Assembly: GCA_001692895.1 (NCBI GenBank)
Contig: KV748191.1
Coordinates: 496,001-560,000 of the forward strand
DNA length: 64,000 nucleotides
Source of the DNA: Cenococcum geophilum 1.58
Lineage: Eukaryota > Ascomycota > Dothideomycetes > Gloniales > Gloniaceae
Direction of reading: 5' to 3'
A program made the position numbers and the translations under genes. The notes below the pieces were generated by a model. The model saw only the letters and a list, made by a program, of their open reading frames with translations, was not told where the DNA came from and made no database searches. This document shows positions 7,484 through 64,000 of this stretch, in pieces. Position 1 is the first letter of the stretch, and each line of letters begins with the position of its first letter.

Positions 7484-7621
7484 TCGGAAGAGAAAACTTC
7501 CTCCGAGCTCCTTTGCCCACACTCACATAAGCACGCCACGACAAGCCCCATGTCGGAAGAGAAAACTTCCTCCGAGCTCCTTTGCCCACACTCACATAAG
7601 CACGCCACGACAAGCCCCATG
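7484..7621. repeat. perfect tandem duplication, 2 x 69 bp
   Basis: Units 7484-7552 and 7553-7621 are identical over all 69 bases. The unit begins TCGGAAGAGAAAACTTCC, itself containing a short GGAAG/CTTCC palindrome, and ends CAAGCCCCATG. Because 69 is a multiple of three, open frames run through both copies on either strand, but nothing else supports a gene here. Confidence 0.9.
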
Positions 7622-19727: not shown

Positions 19728-21330
19728 ATGAATCTCTTCGATCTTCCTCTCGACGTCTTTCTATCCATTCTTGAACAAACAGTTGTGACAATTAGCTATT
19801 ATAGGGAGTTAGTGAGGCTGCGATTGGTCTGCAGTATGTATTCCGTCTACAGATGAACAAAGCATCCCTATGGCAGAGTATTAAGACTACGAATCAATTG
19901 CAGAGCTATTCAATGCCGAGATACCACACGCAATTTGCAGGACGCGGTTACTTGAACTCCGTAGACGTCCAAACGTCAGCATGGAGCTCACCTCACTTTA
20001 TCTGTATCAAAGGACTATTGCGGATGGCCCCTTCAGCAAGGAAAATTTCCAGGGGACAATGTATGAGGCCGTCGATACCATTCTGCGAGAAGAAGACATA
20101 CGGCCATCCGAGAATCTAAGGCGGGAGTACTTGCAAACTCTGTGCAGAGGCGCTGCATTTTTCTCCGGACCGTGGATCTTCACTTTTGGCCGGCTTCACC
20201 CGGGCCTGACAGCCCGTTTGATGCAGCGTTCGAGCGAAATTAAAACCAATAGCTTATTTGTCGCAGCAGCGTGTCTAGGAAAGACGGCCCTTATTGCAAG
20301 GCTTTTGCTAGAGGGAGATGCGTTAGTTTCTAAACCAAACCCATACCTAGGCTCAGCGTTAAGATGTGCCGCCATGCAAGGCCACTACGATACTACTAGG
20401 ACTCTTCTCGATGCTGGCGCTGATGTCAATTGCTTGAGACTATTATATAAAGACTTCGCATTAGCTGCCGCAGCATTCGAAGGGCACCGCCACATCGTGG
20501 AGCTGCTGCTCGAGCCCAGATACAATTGCACTACCTTTGGAAAATATTACGAAACAGCAATCTGTCGAGCAGCTCGGGGTGGGCATCTAGAAATCGTGCT
20601 CTTCATGATCCAGCGGGGCAAATTCAACAACTTGAAAGACTTGACCCAGACAATCCTCGGCGAAGCCGCAGGATACGGGCAAGAGAACGTAGTGCAATGG
20701 GCACTCGACAACGGCGCAGAGGTCCATGACAGCACTCAAAGACTATCCAACAAGAGCGCCCTAAATCACGCTGCTCTAAACGAGCAAGAGGACGTAGTGC
20801 AATGGGCGCTCGACAACGGCGCAGAGGCCCATAGCAACATTCAAAGACTATCCAACAAGAGCGCCCTAAACCACGCTGCTCTAAACGGGCAAGAGTCCGT
20901 CGTGCGGTTGCTTCTTCGCCGAGCCCCCTACAACTTCCGCGACGCGTTCTTGCAGACCATGGTTGGCGGATCCGAGCGGACGGCGCGCACGATTTTTAAT
21001 GCTATGATGCAGCCCACTCCATACCGTAGAGGCTGGTCTCCAACGCTCCAGGGGCCGTTTGGTGAGACCTGCTTGATCTGGGCAGCAAAGCACGGCCAAA
21101 CTCACATGATCCATTTCTTGATGGAGAAGGGTGCTGGTGTGACACAGACCGGAGGCGAAATGGCGATGTATTACGCAGCGCGTAAGGGTCATATATCGAC
21201 TGTGCGGGCTTTGGTAGCATATGGAGCAGCTTTGAATTCTTCCAATTCGGCCCGTGATCCGCTGGACCAAGCTCGAGCCGCTGGTCATCATGATCTCGTT
21301 AAATTGCTCATTGAACTTGGAGTGAGATAG
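19728..21330 (+). CDS. F-box-like / ankyrin-repeat protein
   Basis: Two exons, 19728-19833 and 19904-21330, giving 510 residues. The first exon plus the splice yields an F-box-like start (LPLDVFLSILEQ, then LVRLRLVCKLFNAEI). The acceptor at 19903 was chosen over three nearer AG sites because it restores VCKLF and avoids a stop codon. From about residue 130 to the end there are roughly eight ankyrin repeats (for example ALRCAAMQGHYDTTRTLLDA and AAFEGHRHIVELLLE). Two adjacent repeats are a recent duplication (20686-20895). F-box proteins of this kind usually link targets to an SCF ubiquitin ligase through Skp1, with the ankyrin array as the target reader. Such genes form large, fast-changing families in Pezizomycotina. 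The specific target cannot be inferred. Confidence 0.8.
20686..20895 (+). repeat. 2 x 105-bp tandem duplication (one ankyrin repeat)
   Basis: Units 20686-20790 and 20791-20895 differ at about 9 of 105 positions. Both keep the frame and encode 35 residues each, beginning VVQWALDNGAE. Differences cluster in the middle of the unit (DSTQ against SNIQ). Confidence 0.88.
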
Positions 21331-57577: not shown

Positions 57578-58943
57578 TAAATGCGGCTTTCTTGTAATGG
57601 AACGAATTTCTTTGATATTTGTACAGATATAGTACCTTCCACTCGCGGTACGCACTGCCGTTGACATGTTCCTTGGGTTACCTCTTAATTCAGTCTCTCG
57701 CATGTCTATTCCAAAACGGTTTTTTATTTGGATTTCCATCTTATGGCGATACCCGTGTTGTTTGGCTAAGGAGACCAGTGCTTTCACAGCTTTGAGAAGT
57801 TTAAAAATATATTCATAAATTGTTTTGTACAAATTGTGAAACTTGTCTTTGGAGGTCTGTATATCGTTCAGCCAACCCTGTGTCTCTGATATTCAGTTTG
57901 GGCTCCATTATTGTGCGGCGTGGCTTCTGTAGAAGTACTTAATGAACCACAGCAGTGCCTTCGGGATATCTAATCGGCCAACAGGGTCAAGCCCGTGGCT
58001 TGCGGAAGTGCCTAAAGACAACTCCTCGTACGTTTATTATTGCAGGTGGTACAACAGGCATCCTGCGTGTGATTCTTCCCAACACTTTTAGATCACATTC
58101 CTAACCGGTAAACTTATAATGATGATTTCCTGTGTTCTTCGGCCTCCACCTCTGATGCGATACTAGGCGCATGGTGGAGGCGTTTTTATCTTAGTTCGGC
58201 ATGGACTCAATCGGCAATTCGGCATTAAGCTAGACGAAAGACCAGCCTCCGCTTTTTCTACCCACAAGCGTCAAGCATGCTGCACCTTTCATTGTACAGT
58301 CATTAGCGAAATCGCCTTCCTACGCTTCTAAAAACTCTTTAACTTCTCGCCAAGGCACTTTTGGACCGAGCCAACCTTTATACGGTTAGACCTCCTAAGT
58401 ATGGATAACCATGCTTTAAATATGCGTTGATATCTTACCGTTCTGTATCTATTACTTAGCGAAATCGCCTTCCACATCCGCAAACTCCGCCAGAGCTTCC
58501 GCCCTGCTTCCGCCCCTGCCCTCACGTTATTGGCCGGATGTTTTGCGAATGCACTCGCAAACGCAAACCACGTTTGTGTCTTGGGCAGTAAGGCTTGAAA
58601 CCCGACCGCCATACTATCTCAAATAGTGTGCGTGTCGGTTCTTGATAAACAAAGTATTGCTCCGAGGGGTTCCGCTAATTGACTGACCTGGTAGGAGCCT
58701 GATTGGTTCTAAAAAGCACGCTAGTGAGCAACCTAGCCTTATTATTACTATAATATAAATGTGTCGAAAATTCTAGATCCTTCGGAAGATTACTATATTA
58801 GAAAGTTTAAGAACTGGAGTAGCAAGTCCTTACTCTATATGTTTAGGAGGGCCCCTCTATGAAATAGAGATCAAAGGAAAAAATATTACAATGAATTTAG
58901 ATCTCGAACATATGAACCTTTCCCAATTATTATCTCCTACCTA
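57578..58943. other. 1.37 kb without a called gene, containing an inverted-repeat copy
   Basis: Holds the DUF7053 gene's 3' UTR, the repeat copy described separately at 58293-58433, and AT-rich DNA just downstream of the receptor gene. A 94-codon minus-strand frame (58328-58612) overlaps the repeat and is probably not a gene. Confidence 0.5.
58293..58433 (+). repeat. left copy of the inverted repeat flanking the NLR gene
   Basis: Matches the reverse complement of about 63752-63900, with shared blocks AGCGAAATCGCCTTCC, AACTTCTC-CCAAGGC, CTTTTGGACCGAGC, TACGGTTAGAC and TATGGATAA. An 8-bp length difference lies after the first block. An exact 18-bp motif (TTAGCGAAATCGCCTTCC) from this copy recurs in direct orientation at 58456-58473. 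Confidence 0.8.
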
Positions 58944-61900
58944 CTACGTAAATTCGAAAATACTTACTACCCCAGACTGCCCTCCGATAACAAGAAGGTT
59001 TCCTCTTACCGCTGAACATCCTCGATAATCATAAGGCAACCAAAGAAGATTCTGACCATCTCGAGCTATCCATTCATCGTTAAGGAAAATATGATCTAAC
59101 GGCTTCTGTGGAAGCGGTAGTAGGGAAGAAGAGGAGCTAGGAGGGATAGCGAGGATCCCTCTATCAGTCTCTAAGCACTGACTATCGCTAGAGAAACGTA
59201 GACTCGAGATAATAGTCTGTAGCTTGAACATCTTCACCCGATCTCCCGTCGCTGCGTCCCAGAGCCTGACCGTCTCGTCGTACGACGCCGACGCCAGCTG
59301 CTTGCCGTCAGGAGAGAAGACAACCGCGTTAACCCAGTTGCTGTGCCCTTCAAGCTTCTTCACCTGCTCTCCCGTCGCTGCGTCCCAGAGCCTGACCGTC
59401 TTGTCGTACGACGCCGACGCCAACTGCTTGCCGTCAGGAGAGAAGGCGACCGCGTTAACCGCGATGCTGTGCCCTTCGAGCTTCTTCACCTGCTCTCCCG
59501 TCGCTGCGTCCCAGAGCCTGGCCGTCCTGTCGTCCGACGCCGACGCCAGCTGCTTGCCGTCAGGAGAGAAGGCGACCGCGTTAACCGCGATGCTGTGCCC
59601 TTCGAGCTTCTTCACCTGCTCTCCCGTCGCTGCGTCCCAGAGCCTGGCCGTCCTGTCGTCCGACGCCGACGCCAGCTGCTTGCCGTCAGGAGAGAAGGCG
59701 ACCGCGTTAACCCCGCTGCTGTGCCCTTCGAGCTTCTTCACCTGCTCTCCCGTCGCTGCGTCCCAGAGCCTGACCGTCTTGTCGTGCGACGCCGACGCCA
59801 GCTGCTTGCCGTCAGAGGAGAAGGCGACCGCGTTAACCCCGCTGCTGTGCCCTTCGAGCTTCTTCACCTGCTCTTCCCGTCGCTGCGTCCCAGAGCCTGA
59901 CCGTCCTGTCGTCCGACGCCGACGCCAGCTGCTTGCCGTCAGGAGAGAAGGCGACCGCGTTAACATCGCTGCTGTGCCCTTCAAGCTTCTTCACCTGCTC
60001 CCCCGTCGCTGCGTCCCAGAGCCTGACCGTCCTGTCGTCCGACGCCGACGCCAGCTGCTTGCCGTCAGGAGAGAAGGCGACCGCGTTAACCCTGGTCGCT
60101 GTGCCCTTCAAGCTTCTTCGCCTGCTCTCCCGTCGCTGCGTCCCAGAGCCTGACCGTCCCGTCGTCCGACGCCGACGCCAGCTGCTTGCCGTCAGGAGAG
60201 AAGGCGACCGCGTTAACCCAGTTGCTGTGCCCTTCAAGCTTCTTCACCTGCTCTCCCGTCGCTGCGTCCCAGAGCCTGACCGTCCTGTCGCTCGACGCCG
60301 ACCCTAGCCGCTTGCCGTCAGGAGAGAAGGCGACCGCGTTAACCCGCCTGCTGTGCCCTTCAAGCTTCTTCACCTGCTCCCCCGTCGCTGCGTCCCAGAG
60401 CCTGACCGTCCTGTCGTACGACGCCAACGCCAGCTGCTTGCCGTCAGGAGAGAAGGCGACCGCCTCAACCAAGCTGCTGTGCCCTTCAAGCTTCTTCACC
60501 TGCTCTCCCGTCGCTGCGTCCCAGAGCCTAACCGTCCCGTCGTATGACGCCGACGCCAGCTGCTTACCGTCAGGAGAGAAGGCGACCGCGCTGACATCGT
60601 TGCTGTGCCCTTCGAGCTTCTGTAGCTCTGCGCTCCAAGATTTTGGGGTTTTTGGCAATCTACAAATCCATTTAGGGACGCGGTCCTGGAACATAGCCCT
60701 AACGATACTCGCCTCTGGACTAAAAATAATAGCAGAAGAGTAGAGCTGAAGCGGTGCCTGATCAGCTATCCATCGATTCTGCAGGAGAAAGCGTCTTGCG
60801 TCGTAAAGAAAACGAGATACTTTGGACCCTTTATTTTCCTAATCCATTGTATGAGTATTGGAAAAGTAGTATATATAGTATTGAGAAGCAGAATAACTTA
60901 CGTCTGTAAGTGAACGCAAAATATTAATCAGGTTGATGCTGTCAGATACATTTCCCATAAGACTTAAAGCTTCAAGCCAGTGAAGCAAGTGCTTCTGGAG
61001 GAATGCGTGGACTGCATCCTCGTCATGTATTCGCTCCCCACTCTGCTCTAAGTGGTGCACCCAGTAACGGCAAGCGTATCTACCATCCGCTGGAAGGCAG
61101 TGCTCGATGGTTTGCGGGTTGATCTCCGTTCGTAGCGTTCCAGGTGATTCCAGAGAACAGATATTTTCCTTAAGGTACTTTGAACCGCTTAAAAGCTCGA
61201 GACACCTATTGGCAAGAACCTTGTTTCGCTCCCTCTCATCAACCCAGAATACGCTATTGCCCCGCTTCTCGGGATCAAGGAGGAATTCGCGGAATGAAAG
61301 ATGGAGTAGTCTTACAGGAGAAGCTGGGTTGGCAGGGATGCTGAGAACAGAATGCAATGGATCTAGTCTGCACTCCACCTTCTCTCTTGGAATCTGAAGA
61401 AGGTTTGCGAGCGAATCCATTGAAAGCGGATCGGCAAGGACAACGATCGAACCGACTATCTCGTGGAACTCTTGGATTAATCTCTTCTCTAAAGCTTTGG
61501 TAAGACCAAGAAGCAACTTTTCCAAAATTGGACAGTACGTTCGGTCGAGTTGCGACGCCTGGCTAGTAGCTTGGTACTCTAATACTGCAGCAAGCTGTTC
61601 TTTAGGATCCCATCTCTTGTCTCCAACGAACCGGCATATGGTTGCTGCAAAGATGAATAATGGAGAGGCTATCTTGGTAAGGGTTCGGACTTCACTTTCA
61701 CCAGGCCAGTCTGATGGTAGCGACGAACCAGCGGAACGTATGTAGTTGAACTCTTCTCTTATCTTTGTGAATTCATCCTCTAGAAAGACCGATATATCAT
61801 GTTCAATTGTGGTTGGAGGTATATCTTGGAGGACTACGTCTTGGTGCGCGTCAGCGGCCATCTTTTTAAAACCAAGCCGAATCGGGAGGTCTGGTCTGCT

Positions 61901-63452
61901 GGTTAGAAAGATCCTCACGCGGACTGCAGTTAACTTTTGTGTTTGCGCCAGGAGATTGAGAAGGTTTCTGATATTGCCTTCTGTCTTTCTGATATCACCT
62001 TCTATCTCACATTCATCTAGTGCATCGACCACAACAACTAACGGAGAGGCGTGTGGAGTAGCCTGGTCAAGCCGTGACAAAGGTTGCAATATAAGCTTCT
62101 CGAACTGTTCTTCTAGTGATTTCGCTGCGATATTAGGTTGCTCGTCGACTGCATTCCTGACGAAGGGGACGATATCGGGGACCGCCAGCACGAGTTGAGT
62201 AGTGATGGTGGTGAAAAACCTAGACGCGTTCCCACGCTCACCCTCGCCCCTTTTAAAGAAGAAGCTGGCCCCTAGCTGGCCTTCATTGGCGAAATATTGC
62301 GCCACCGTCCGAGAAATTGTCGACTTCCCTGTGCCGGCCATGCCGCTCAGCCAAAATATACACTTCCCGTCTGGGTCTTCGGCCCATTCCCTGATTTGGC
62401 GCAGAAGGTCTATTCGAGTGTCGGGGTGACATCTCGCATCGAGCTCATCTGCGTAGGAGTTGAATGCCGCCCCTTCAGCAGAAGGCAGCCTAGCTAAGTC
62501 GATCTTACTTAAGAGCAGATTTACTGACTCTTCAATGCCTTGAAGCCCTTTCAGCTCCTCCAACAATCTTTGGAGTTGTTTTTTGCGCTGACTTGCTTCA
62601 TCCCTGTCGTAGCTGCTTAAGGTTCGGTCACAGTTGCTGGCCTCAATCTCAGCCCGTACTGCGACCTCGTTACATTTGCCCTCAAAATCGCGTACTTCTT
62701 CAGGCTTCCAGAATGCATCTACGGCACGACGAAGCGTGTTCTTCCGGTATATATTAATCGCTCGTGCCAGGAACTCCAGTACATGTGCGTGGAGGTCGAT
62801 CAATGCATTCTCGAAATTTGTCCGCGTTTGGGTATCTGGTAGGATCTGCAGGTAGTCCATGTAGGCCTTCAATCGATGCGTCATATAAAGAGCAGTCTTC
62901 AGACCTGTTAGAAGGGCTGCCATTTGCCGGCTCTCGGATACGGCTGCCTACAAAAAAATTAGAAGATGCTGGCTCAATCTAAACACAGAAAGAGGCAGTC
63001 GTGTTGCTCTATACCTCAAGTAAGAGACGGATCCCCGCCCAGGGCAAGCCAGCATGTATCGGATCTACATTCACAGCGATATCCCCAACCGTCTTAAATC
63101 TATCCAACCACATGATGACTTTGTCCGCCTCCTCTCGCAGCATCACAAGACGTCCTCTAATCGTAAAAGTCCACCTCTTGTCATCACATATTTTTTGTTT
63201 CTTGTGGGCAGCCTTAAGTACGTCTCTAAGTGCTGACCCAATATCATTCGTATTAGGCAGAATATTTTCTTGTATTGTCGCTCGTTCCCGCTCTTTGAGA
63301 AGCCCAAGGGCTTTGTCTAAAAGATTGCAGCTCTGAGTATTTGCTGCTGGTGCACATGGCTGGACAGGAGATGCTCTGGCGTTAGCCGGCGATCGGGAAC
63401 GGGAAAACAGACGGCGTAGTCCCAACCGATCTCTCAGATGAGGGTCCGGCAT
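58944..63452 (-). CDS. NACHT-WD40 (NWD/HET-E-type) NLR receptor, WD40 part with two apparent frameshifts
   Basis: Three exons on the minus strand: 63452-63015, 62947-60902 and 60838-58944, encoding about 1,460 residues. The N-terminal NACHT-associated domain shows [13 protein letters not shown] across the first splice. The NACHT NTPase follows with Walker [14 protein letters not shown] and Walker [13 protein letters not shown] helical region with [17 protein letters not shown] and a linker typical of the family ([13 protein letters not shown]) lead into eleven WD40 repeats of 42 residues. A short propeller-closing tail ends in VSIFEFT. Fungal NLRs of this group control heterokaryon incompatibility or sense non-self. 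Compared with sister repeats, one extra base lies within about 60091-60098 and one at about 59873-59875, so the frame changes twice. The gene may be disabled, or the assembly may be wrong in these repeats. It is treated as a host receptor gene. Confidence 0.88.
59229..60616 (-). repeat. tandem array of eleven near-identical 126-bp WD40 repeats
   Basis: Units begin LEGHS and end GEQVKK. They are almost identical in DNA except at the two residues after LEGHS (ND, SL, RR, NW, DQ-like, SD, SG, SG, IA, IA, NW) and around ASxDx (YDG, YDR, SDR, DDG, DDR, DDR, HDK, DDR, DDR, YDK, YDE). The span of 1388 bp is 11 x 126 plus two bases. Confidence 0.93.
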
Positions 63453-64000
63453 AGCAGTATCTGAAGGGTTCGACTAGCAGGAGCATTGACCGTGCTGGCA
63501 TCTACGGATCAAAACTTGCTCCACTGATGCCTGCTCAGATCGTGCAACGATGGAAGCGGATGACTGAGGGGCGCAGGGCTCCGTTAGATTTTGTCACGCC
63601 AAGCATTCTACAGAGCAAGTCTAGAGCTGCGGGGTTATGCGGATTATTATTGGAGGAGAGACCGATATATTTCGGTCGATACAAACCCTTGCCTAATTGT
63701 GTGGGTGTCGGGTTTTAAGCCTTGCTGCCTAAGGCACAAACAAGTTGCGTTTTATCAATGCGAGTGCTAAAGCAGGATTATCCATATTTAAGAGTCTAAC
63801 CGTATGGGGGTTAGCTCGGTCCAAAAGCGCCTTGGTGAGAAGTTGAAAAAGGGTTGGAAGCGCAGTTGGGGCGGAAGGCGATTTCGCTAGTGACTGTATG
63901 TAGAGGACTTGCTCGGCTCTTAACTGCCGGAGATATCAAGGGAGCTCTCACATCCGTCCGGAGTGGCTTTCGGCATCGAATCATTCACGTTGATGACTGG
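63453..64000. other. upstream region of the NLR gene; no gene
   Basis: No supported reading frame. It contains the right inverted-repeat copy and a near-palindrome (GACCGATATATTTCGGTC) at 63660-63677 about 210 bp upstream of the receptor ATG, possibly a regulatory site or hairpin. Confidence 0.5.
63752..63900 (-). repeat. right copy of the inverted repeat flanking the NLR gene
   Basis: Inverted relative to 58293-58433. The visible match runs from TATCAATGC at 63753 to TGACTGTATG at 63900 with scattered substitutions, roughly 75-80 percent identical by eye. It may be longer than seen here, as divergence at both ends is gradual. Confidence 0.78.

Follow-up and report, generated by a model that had tools for sequence, protein, structure and literature searches.

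The stretch of DNA considered here, 64,000 nucleotides from the ascomycete Cenococcum geophilum 1.58 (contig KV748191.1, positions 496,001 to 560,000; hereafter the window), contains on its minus strand a gene for a fungal NOD-like receptor (NLR) whose sensor is an array of 11 closely similar WD40 repeats, and this gene lies between two inverted, TA-bounded ends. The gene model runs from an ATG at 63452 to a stop at 58946–58944, and its first 1,074 codons are open, until a break in the fifth repeat unit. Specifically, exon 1 (63015–63452) is open and in phase with exon 2 (60902–62947), which is open along its whole length; exon 3 (58944–60838) comprises a linker, the WD40 array, a C-terminal tail and the stop, and its frame is broken twice within the array. 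The two introns, one of 67 bp (62948–63014, GT...AG) and one of 63 bp (60839–60901, GTAAGT...TTAG), are predicted from sequence. The N-terminal domain (62699–63254, spanning intron 1) matches NACHT_N (PF17100, 9.1e-9), the N-terminal domain of NACHT-WD40 (NWD) receptors, with 36.0 bits against a cut-off of 30, and is overlapped by a match to DUF7708 (PF24809, 5.6e-10). There follow a NACHT-type NTPase domain (61895–62398; PF24883, 2.8e-31; PF05729, 4.2e-6, at 27.1 bits against a cut-off of 26.7) and matches to PF00400 (WD40) in both pieces of the array that were scanned, between which the frame is broken. The spliced N-terminus gives no match to the HET domain (PF06985) at E up to 1. Matches to NACHT_N, NPHP3_N/NACHT and WD40 without HET thus define a NACHT-WD40 NLR, and the comparison with HET-E and HET-D drawn in a first-pass annotation of this DNA is not supported in the form given: lacking a HET domain, the gene is not a member of the HET-NACHT-WD40 (HNWD) group. 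A role in non-self recognition would be suggested by analogy with the family.

On the minus strand, the array runs from 60619 to 59232 and, cut at KLEGHS, comprises 11 units, each of 42 codons (unit 1, 60619–60494; unit 11, 59357–59232), and Tandem Repeats Finder likewise reports 11 copies of period 126 at 59231–60621. The first-pass annotation had described 11 almost identical WD40 repeats at 59229–60616; the repeats are there, each of about 126 bp, although the exact bounds differ. Pairwise DNA identity averages 0.930 (range 0.865–0.984) and pairwise protein identity 0.878 (0.786–0.975), the latter on average above the 80% that marks HNWD arrays. Two of the units, 5 and 6, measure 127 bp and the others 126 bp, which shifts the reading frame twice and distributes the array over three frames. 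The count of 11 is the value of this assembly, whose arrays look unreliable. We also considered repeat-induced point mutation (RIP): both RIP indices of the array (2.67 and 0.96) point nominally towards it, but its GC content is 65% (with only 16 TA and 6 AT dinucleotides), and if the variable codons described below are left aside, the units show 25 departures from their consensus, 14 of the type C>T or G>A and 3 in a CpA/TpG context. We do not accept that the array has undergone RIP, which may nonetheless be a source of mutation in it.

The gene is enclosed by inverted ends (TACAGTCAYTAGCGAAATCGCCTTCC) that lie 5.6 kb apart, both reading towards it. The left core (TACAGTCATTAGCGAAATCGCCTTCC, 58295–58320, plus strand) and the right core (TACAGTCACTAGCGAAATCGCCTTCC, 63873–63898, minus strand) are alike at 25 of 26 bases. 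Beyond the cores, the left arm (58295–58418, plus strand) pairs with the right arm (63768–63898, minus strand) at 79% identity over 132 columns, with a further 59-bp arm match at 58559–58617; no other copy of the long arm was found within reach of the genome search. Both ends carry TA, and no longer target duplication was found. Nothing except the NLR is seen in the unit that the ends delimit, and 47 overlapping control segments of the window contain no inverted flanks. We read these ends as the termini of a putative NLR-carrying element that is TA-bounded and possibly Tc1-like.

It is informative to examine these ends in light of their occurrence across the genome. The core motif, allowing at most 3 mismatches, is found at 25 sites (the reversed control at none), a subtype of it at 16 and its inner part at 45, which merge into 66 distinct sites in 177 Mb. 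When 18 ends are compared, their homology begins sharply at TA and extends mostly over 24–38 bp in matching pairs, some pairs matching over 77–107 bp, and the bases outside TA look unrelated. Terminal inverted repeats (TIRs) with a sharp outer boundary and several copies of the ends are the marks of a TIR transposon, and they are present here, the copies being those of the ends. To place the sites relative to NLR genes, we used a reference of at least 170 NACHT loci merged from two lists (56 of the 64 and 150 of the 154 matches were entered). On their inner side, 12 of the 66 sites have a listed NACHT match at a distance of up to 6 kb, and on their outer side none has, where 0.38 per side would be expected; leaving out the two sites of the window, the inner count is 10 of 64 (P 4.6e-12). 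Furthermore, among neighbouring sites less than 10 kb apart there are 4 inward-facing pairs, no outward-facing pair and 1 pair facing the same way.

Two further comparisons use the 21 loci of the NLR family to which the window gene belongs (the window and L009–L028). A weight matrix trained on 33 other sites, with a threshold score of 20 (120 shuffles reached at most 8.6), finds 9 inward ends at 8 of the 21 loci and 1 outward end, near L012. Likewise, upstream and downstream flanks match in inverted orientation at 9 of 21 loci, 6 of these below 1e-8, versus direct matches at 2 of 21 (Fisher P 0.03); in mismatched pairs of loci, inverted matches number 9 of 126 and direct matches 2. The inverted matches at L010, L016 and L025 are weak, those of L014, L024 and L025 resemble other repeat families, and at L013 and L021 the match is confined to subterminal arms. 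Both motif ends are present at three NLR loci: the window, L036 (5.5 kb) and C22, where the second end lacks 12 bp. As observations in their own right, the NLR gene of L024 (C16:2586900-2596500) lies between inverted arms of about 470 bp that begin TAAYGTCCGYCYCTGCGTYGCGG and are TA-initial, an end family different from that of the window, and L014 and L025 have in common a short inverted repeat that contains AAGGGTGTGGCC and CCCTCCCTGCTAGCG and lies near both NLR genes.

Genes other than NACHT-WD40 receptors also lie inside these ends: a HET domain (L030), an NLR with PNP_UDP, NACHT and ankyrin domains (L033, one of the 12) and a kinase and fruit-body-lectin gene (L032). At these three loci the inward side alone was inspected, so that they provide no test of orientation. 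Further inward-facing pairs occur at C2 and C34, each spanning 3.6 kb. The ends at L034, L035 and L037 adjoin DNA damaged by RIP, in which the longest stretches without a stop reach 88, 95 and 134 amino acids; two of the three contain pieces that by eye resemble reverse transcriptase. A possible larger unit is delimited by C48:407598(+) and C48:450709(-), two mutually facing ends separated by 43 kb, the first of which has a HET domain 1.2 kb to its inner side. A source of transposase was sought by eye just inside the ends. DDE_1 gave none among the best 150 of 713 candidates; DDE_3, among the best 150 of 406, lies 1.6 kb inside C5:2778115 and about 0.9 kb inside C11:4051, and since 0.14 such matches would be expected within 2.5 kb (P 0.009), this result is only suggestive. 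The 901 bases of L043, which overlap this match at C5, have the appearance of RIP damage, and no second end is seen in them. No autonomous element is firmly identified.

It could be that the ends have nothing to do with gene mobility, short elements having inserted independently, or NLR genes having been enclosed by an inverted duplication long ago. Such an origin would suit the single end seen at most NLR loci that bear the motif, the abundance of transposon remains in the genome, the RIP-damaged DNA next to the motif sites L034, L035 and L037, and the 77–107 bp that a few ends have in common with others. However, short elements inserted at random would face outward as often as inward, and this is opposed by the 12 inner versus 0 outer NACHT matches and by the 4 inward versus 0 outward facing pairs. 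The sharp beginning of the end homology at TA and the lack of inverted flanks in all 47 control segments also count against this account. We regard chance or duplication as a serious but rather doubtful account of the ends, and prefer to see in them the boundaries of a transposon-like unit.

A different question is whether the receptor is whole. The two frame breaks of the window array sit in neighbouring interior units, 5 and 6, and the first-pass annotation, which had spoken of a sensor active now or until recently, is unsupported on this point as it was worded, the frame being broken twice in the assembly. Aligning each of the 21 family arrays to its own unit consensus reveals 260 frame-shifting indels, of which 210 are of a single base (134 insertions and 76 deletions), 158 of these 210 located in homopolymers. 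Stops gained by substitution number just 4 in 9,426 codons. At least one frame-shifting indel is present in 16 of the 21 arrays (L009, L010, L011, L012 and L021 have none), and within the affected arrays 243 indels fall in 16,569 bp of interior sequence versus 17 in 4,032 bp of end units. The adjacent NACHT stretch is stop-free in 15 of the 19 loci with a match, with one split between frames. The genome, at 177.2 Mb in 162 contigs and with many HET, NACHT and WD40 matches, fits an assembly described as 178 Mb built from Illumina libraries, with PacBio RS reads filling gaps, in the available text of its report, which also describes expanded HET/NACHT/WD40 families (PMC5023957). For Podospora, such arrays are described as unreliably recovered from short-read assemblies (PMC12222747). 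The frame breaks of the family look like gap-filling errors in repeats rather than decay.

If the breaks of the window were real, the gene would be a recent pseudogene whose product ends after four repeats, as do inactive short alleles or pseudogenes of Podospora. The position of both breaks in adjacent units fits this, as do a stop in the NACHT region of the nearest paralogue, L009, and the at least 8 TAG/TAA stops found in 19 of the 64 NACHT matches of the genome. Against it, the NACHT region and the remaining coding parts of the gene are open, the breaks of the family as a whole lie mostly in the interior, involve single bases in homopolymers and come with almost no nonsense substitutions, and the source assembly was probably gap-filled with raw PacBio reads. 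Because the window has only two breaks, interior though they are, decay there deserves some weight; we consider it unlikely, error being the likelier source of the breaks, and the receptor is probably intact in nature. Genuine decay does occur elsewhere within the NACHT family: the 19 stop-laden matches have at most 2 TGA each, as from RIP, and stand alongside intact ones. With frame-shifting indels, mostly error-like, in 16 of 21 arrays, pseudogene calls or repeat counts taken from the assembly would mislead.

Within the repeats, change is concentrated at a few codons. Counting the K of KLEGHS as 1, the codons that vary in protein are 7, 8, 10, 13, 16, 20, 22, 23, 26, 28, 30, 39, 40 and 41. 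By our own count, 16 of the 25 extra amino-acid types fall at 5 of the 42 codons (7, 8, 10, 26 and 28), and one extra residue each is found at the nine others (13, 16, 20, 22, 23, 30, 39, 40 and 41); silent change is present in 11 codons of the unit. The first-pass annotation had the units varying only at fixed positions, and the clustering it described is real, although the word "only" does not hold. V9 and D27 are constant in protein and are flanked by the variable codons 8/10 and 26/28. A closely similar arrangement is described for HET-E and HET-D of Podospora in the available text of PMC1805685, where codons 7, 9, 25 and 27 are under strong positive selection and each pair brackets a codon under purifying selection (8 and 26). 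Because invariant V9 and D27 sit between the variable pairs, we take the Podospora numbering to be probably that of the window minus one.

The four codons 8, 10, 26 and 28 were thus fixed beforehand from the Podospora paper. Masking codons 1–8 of unit 5 and 38–42 of unit 6 as unsure, replacement change (pN) at these codons is 0.371 versus silent change (pS) of 0.082 over all codons, a ratio of 4.5 (bootstrap 3.1–7.6), which bears out the earlier claim that the clustered changes are mostly non-synonymous; in the remainder of the unit, pN is 0.022 and pS 0.084. Of 111,930 sets of four codons, only 7 have a pN at least that of the named sites. The units compared across the 21 loci were drawn from 244 matched stretches, with 151 clean over the unit retained and 93 dropped; 5 loci had too few clean units and were left out of the pN/pS test. 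In each of the 16 loci that supplied 4 or more clean units, the window included, pN at the four sites exceeds both pN and pS of the rest. Substitution error as the origin of the variable codons is ruled out, since the five arrays free of frame-shifting indels (L009, L010, L011, L012 and L021) also have a pN at the four sites that is higher than the silent change in other codons.

WD40 proteins generally tolerate change in their surface loops, and one could suppose that the variable codons are relaxed rather than selected, conversion homogenising the repeats while loop residues drift. Synonymous sites are few at the four codons and the units are non-independent, which lends this some credit. 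Yet relaxation alone would bring replacement change level with the silent rate of the array, and it is 4.5 times that rate; the excess over pS of the rest recurs in 16 of 16 loci, and the codons are those named in advance from Podospora. We judge relaxation improbable and favour selection at these positions.

The homogenisation acts within the gene. With the variable codons left out, the nearest neighbour of 143 of the 151 clean units lies in its own locus, and mean unit distance is 0.087 within loci versus 0.246 between them. Window units differ from one another by 0.036 on average, and the closest unit at any other compared locus is at least 0.131 away; the distance of the window units from all others points to homogenisation within the gene here, and exchange of units between the window array and other loci was not seen among the 21 loci compared. 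Of the earlier proposal of concerted evolution with diversifying selection on the propeller surface, within-locus homogenisation and the replacement excess are upheld.

As for the structure of the sensor, an AlphaFold2 model of units 7–11 plus the tail (309 residues, single sequence; mean predicted local distance difference test score, pLDDT, 60.9; predicted template modelling score, pTM, 0.60) forms regular strands along its repeats, with block pLDDT of 60–88 over residues 1–180, 51–57 by residue 210 and 25–44 in the tail. Mapped onto the secondary structure of the model, codons 7 and 8 precede strand a, in the d-a loop, codon 10 lies at its start and codons 26 and 28 are in the b-c turn; in the available text of the Podospora paper these loop positions lie on the interaction face of the propeller (PMC1805685), and the variable codons are accordingly predicted to be on the contact face. 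The best fold matches listed are mostly WD40 propellers, and the best match by sequence in the PDB, 2YMU, also ranks among them. The linker before the array (60620–60838) resembles one diverged, cryptic blade on a reading of its sequence, and the tail after unit 11 (58947–59231), which has no Pfam match and low model confidence, possibly contains two; the idea of two propellers made from 1 + 11 + 2 blades is a candidate only, the tail being modelled at low confidence.

Another proposal is that the NLR is Starship cargo, situated near the edge of a giant element whose captain is a tyrosine recombinase. Starships usually have NLR and patatin genes among their accessory genes, and of at least 165 DUF3435 matches two (C113 and C7) are less than 6 kb from a motif site. 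These two are on the outer side, however, none of the matches listed is found by eye just inside an end or less than 10 kb inside any of the 66, and the ends that pair at NLR loci are separated by about 5.5 kb, so that we give this proposal very little credence.

Taken together, these observations lead to a joint reading that we consider fairly probable: the window contains an NLR sensor with homogenised and selected repeats and with frame breaks born of error, and the gene and its flanks form a transposon-like unit. The NACHT_N domain, the NACHT switch and the beta-propeller sensor of 11 WD40 units make up a fungal NLR of the STAND (signal transduction ATPases with numerous domains) type. Unequal exchange or conversion would keep the units alike and reshuffle them, and selection would retain new residues at the points of contact. 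Binding of a ligand might then lead the NACHT domain to oligomerise and so trigger the N-terminal effector, as has been proposed for HNWD proteins of Podospora. The two breaks would probably be errors from filling gaps in a short-read assembly with raw long reads. The gene and its flanks would constitute a 5.6-kb unit that resembles a non-autonomous DNA transposon, and through such units the NLR family may in part have been scattered over the genome.

Several points weigh against this reading. As TA is part of nearly every end, the target duplication is not independent evidence. There is no transposase within the window's unit, and DDE_3, among the best 150 of 406 candidates, lies by eye just inside only 2 of the 66 sites and in RIP-damaged form; the 1.9 kb read inside the C2 pair (L042) is RIP-damaged too, with no frame over 61 amino acids. 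Just three NLR loci carry both motif ends, a second end was not found at C4, L010, L012, L016, L020 or L025, an outward end lies near L012, and 54 of the 66 sites are without a listed NACHT match within 6 kb. The evidence for the element is that of one genome. Also, the bootstrap overstates certainty because the units are related, and the gene may in reality be dead.

More broadly, one can imagine a TA-bounded, Tc1-like TIR family that carries genes of self/non-self recognition, namely NLRs (an inner end is present at 10 NACHT loci) and perhaps also genes of the HET and kinase-lectin kinds, such that the NLR repertoire would have spread as mobile one-gene cassettes, by transposition together with reshuffling of repeats; to us this wider proposal is evenly poised between acceptance and doubt. 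It addresses the question of how fungi build large and scattered repertoires of non-self sensors. If NLRs travel as TIR cargo, a family dispersed through the genome whose units are homogenised within each gene would be explained, and the presence or absence of sensors between strains would become testable at mapped sites.

Elsewhere in the window, an open frame at 19885–21330 on the plus strand is ankyrin-repeat-like by eye; it contains a duplicated 105-bp unit, the copies 91% identical (20675–20895), and would encode a further repeat protein with internal conservation. A perfect 69-bp tandem duplication lies at 7484–7621.

The repeats belong to a known type of fungal sensor, which in this gene has no HET domain; their position between inverted, TA-bounded ends that other NLR loci also have is the new lead. 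In its repeats the sensor resembles 2YMU, its best sequence match in the PDB and one of its top group of fold matches, which is a highly repetitive WD40 propeller from Nostoc and is not known to be an NLR. The ends recall Tc1/mariner elements, for which a CAGT start is usual: they have TA and a CAGT start, and DDE_3 is seen by eye just inside 2 of 66 sites. In contrast, the window unit has no transposase, and its assignment to this group is tentative. We found no report of NACHT-WD40 genes inside fungal TIR elements among the papers listed from the open-licence literature, judged by titles and the beginnings of abstracts. The nearest concept found is that of the plant Pack-TYPE transposons, described in the available text as non-autonomous TIR elements carrying host coding DNA (PMC8903248); unlike these, the window unit holds a fungal receptor gene with all its domains and is known here from the sequence of one genome. 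Like fungal NWD NLRs with NACHT_N (PF17100), the window gene has an N-terminal domain and a NACHT domain above Pfam cut-offs and a WD40 sensor, and it displays the high internal conservation that only a fraction of them have, 21.6% of WD repeats in NLRs according to the available text of PMC4986451. The closest parallel is with the HNWD proteins of Podospora anserina (HET-E, HET-D and HET-R), which likewise join NACHT to 42-codon WD40 units of high internal conservation, 11 in the usual functional alleles as far as the available text describes them (PMC12222747), with change concentrated at what appear, given the probable offset in numbering, to be the same codons. Unlike them, the window gene has no HET domain, its units are not common to the other loci compared, and it stands between inverted, TA-bounded ends.

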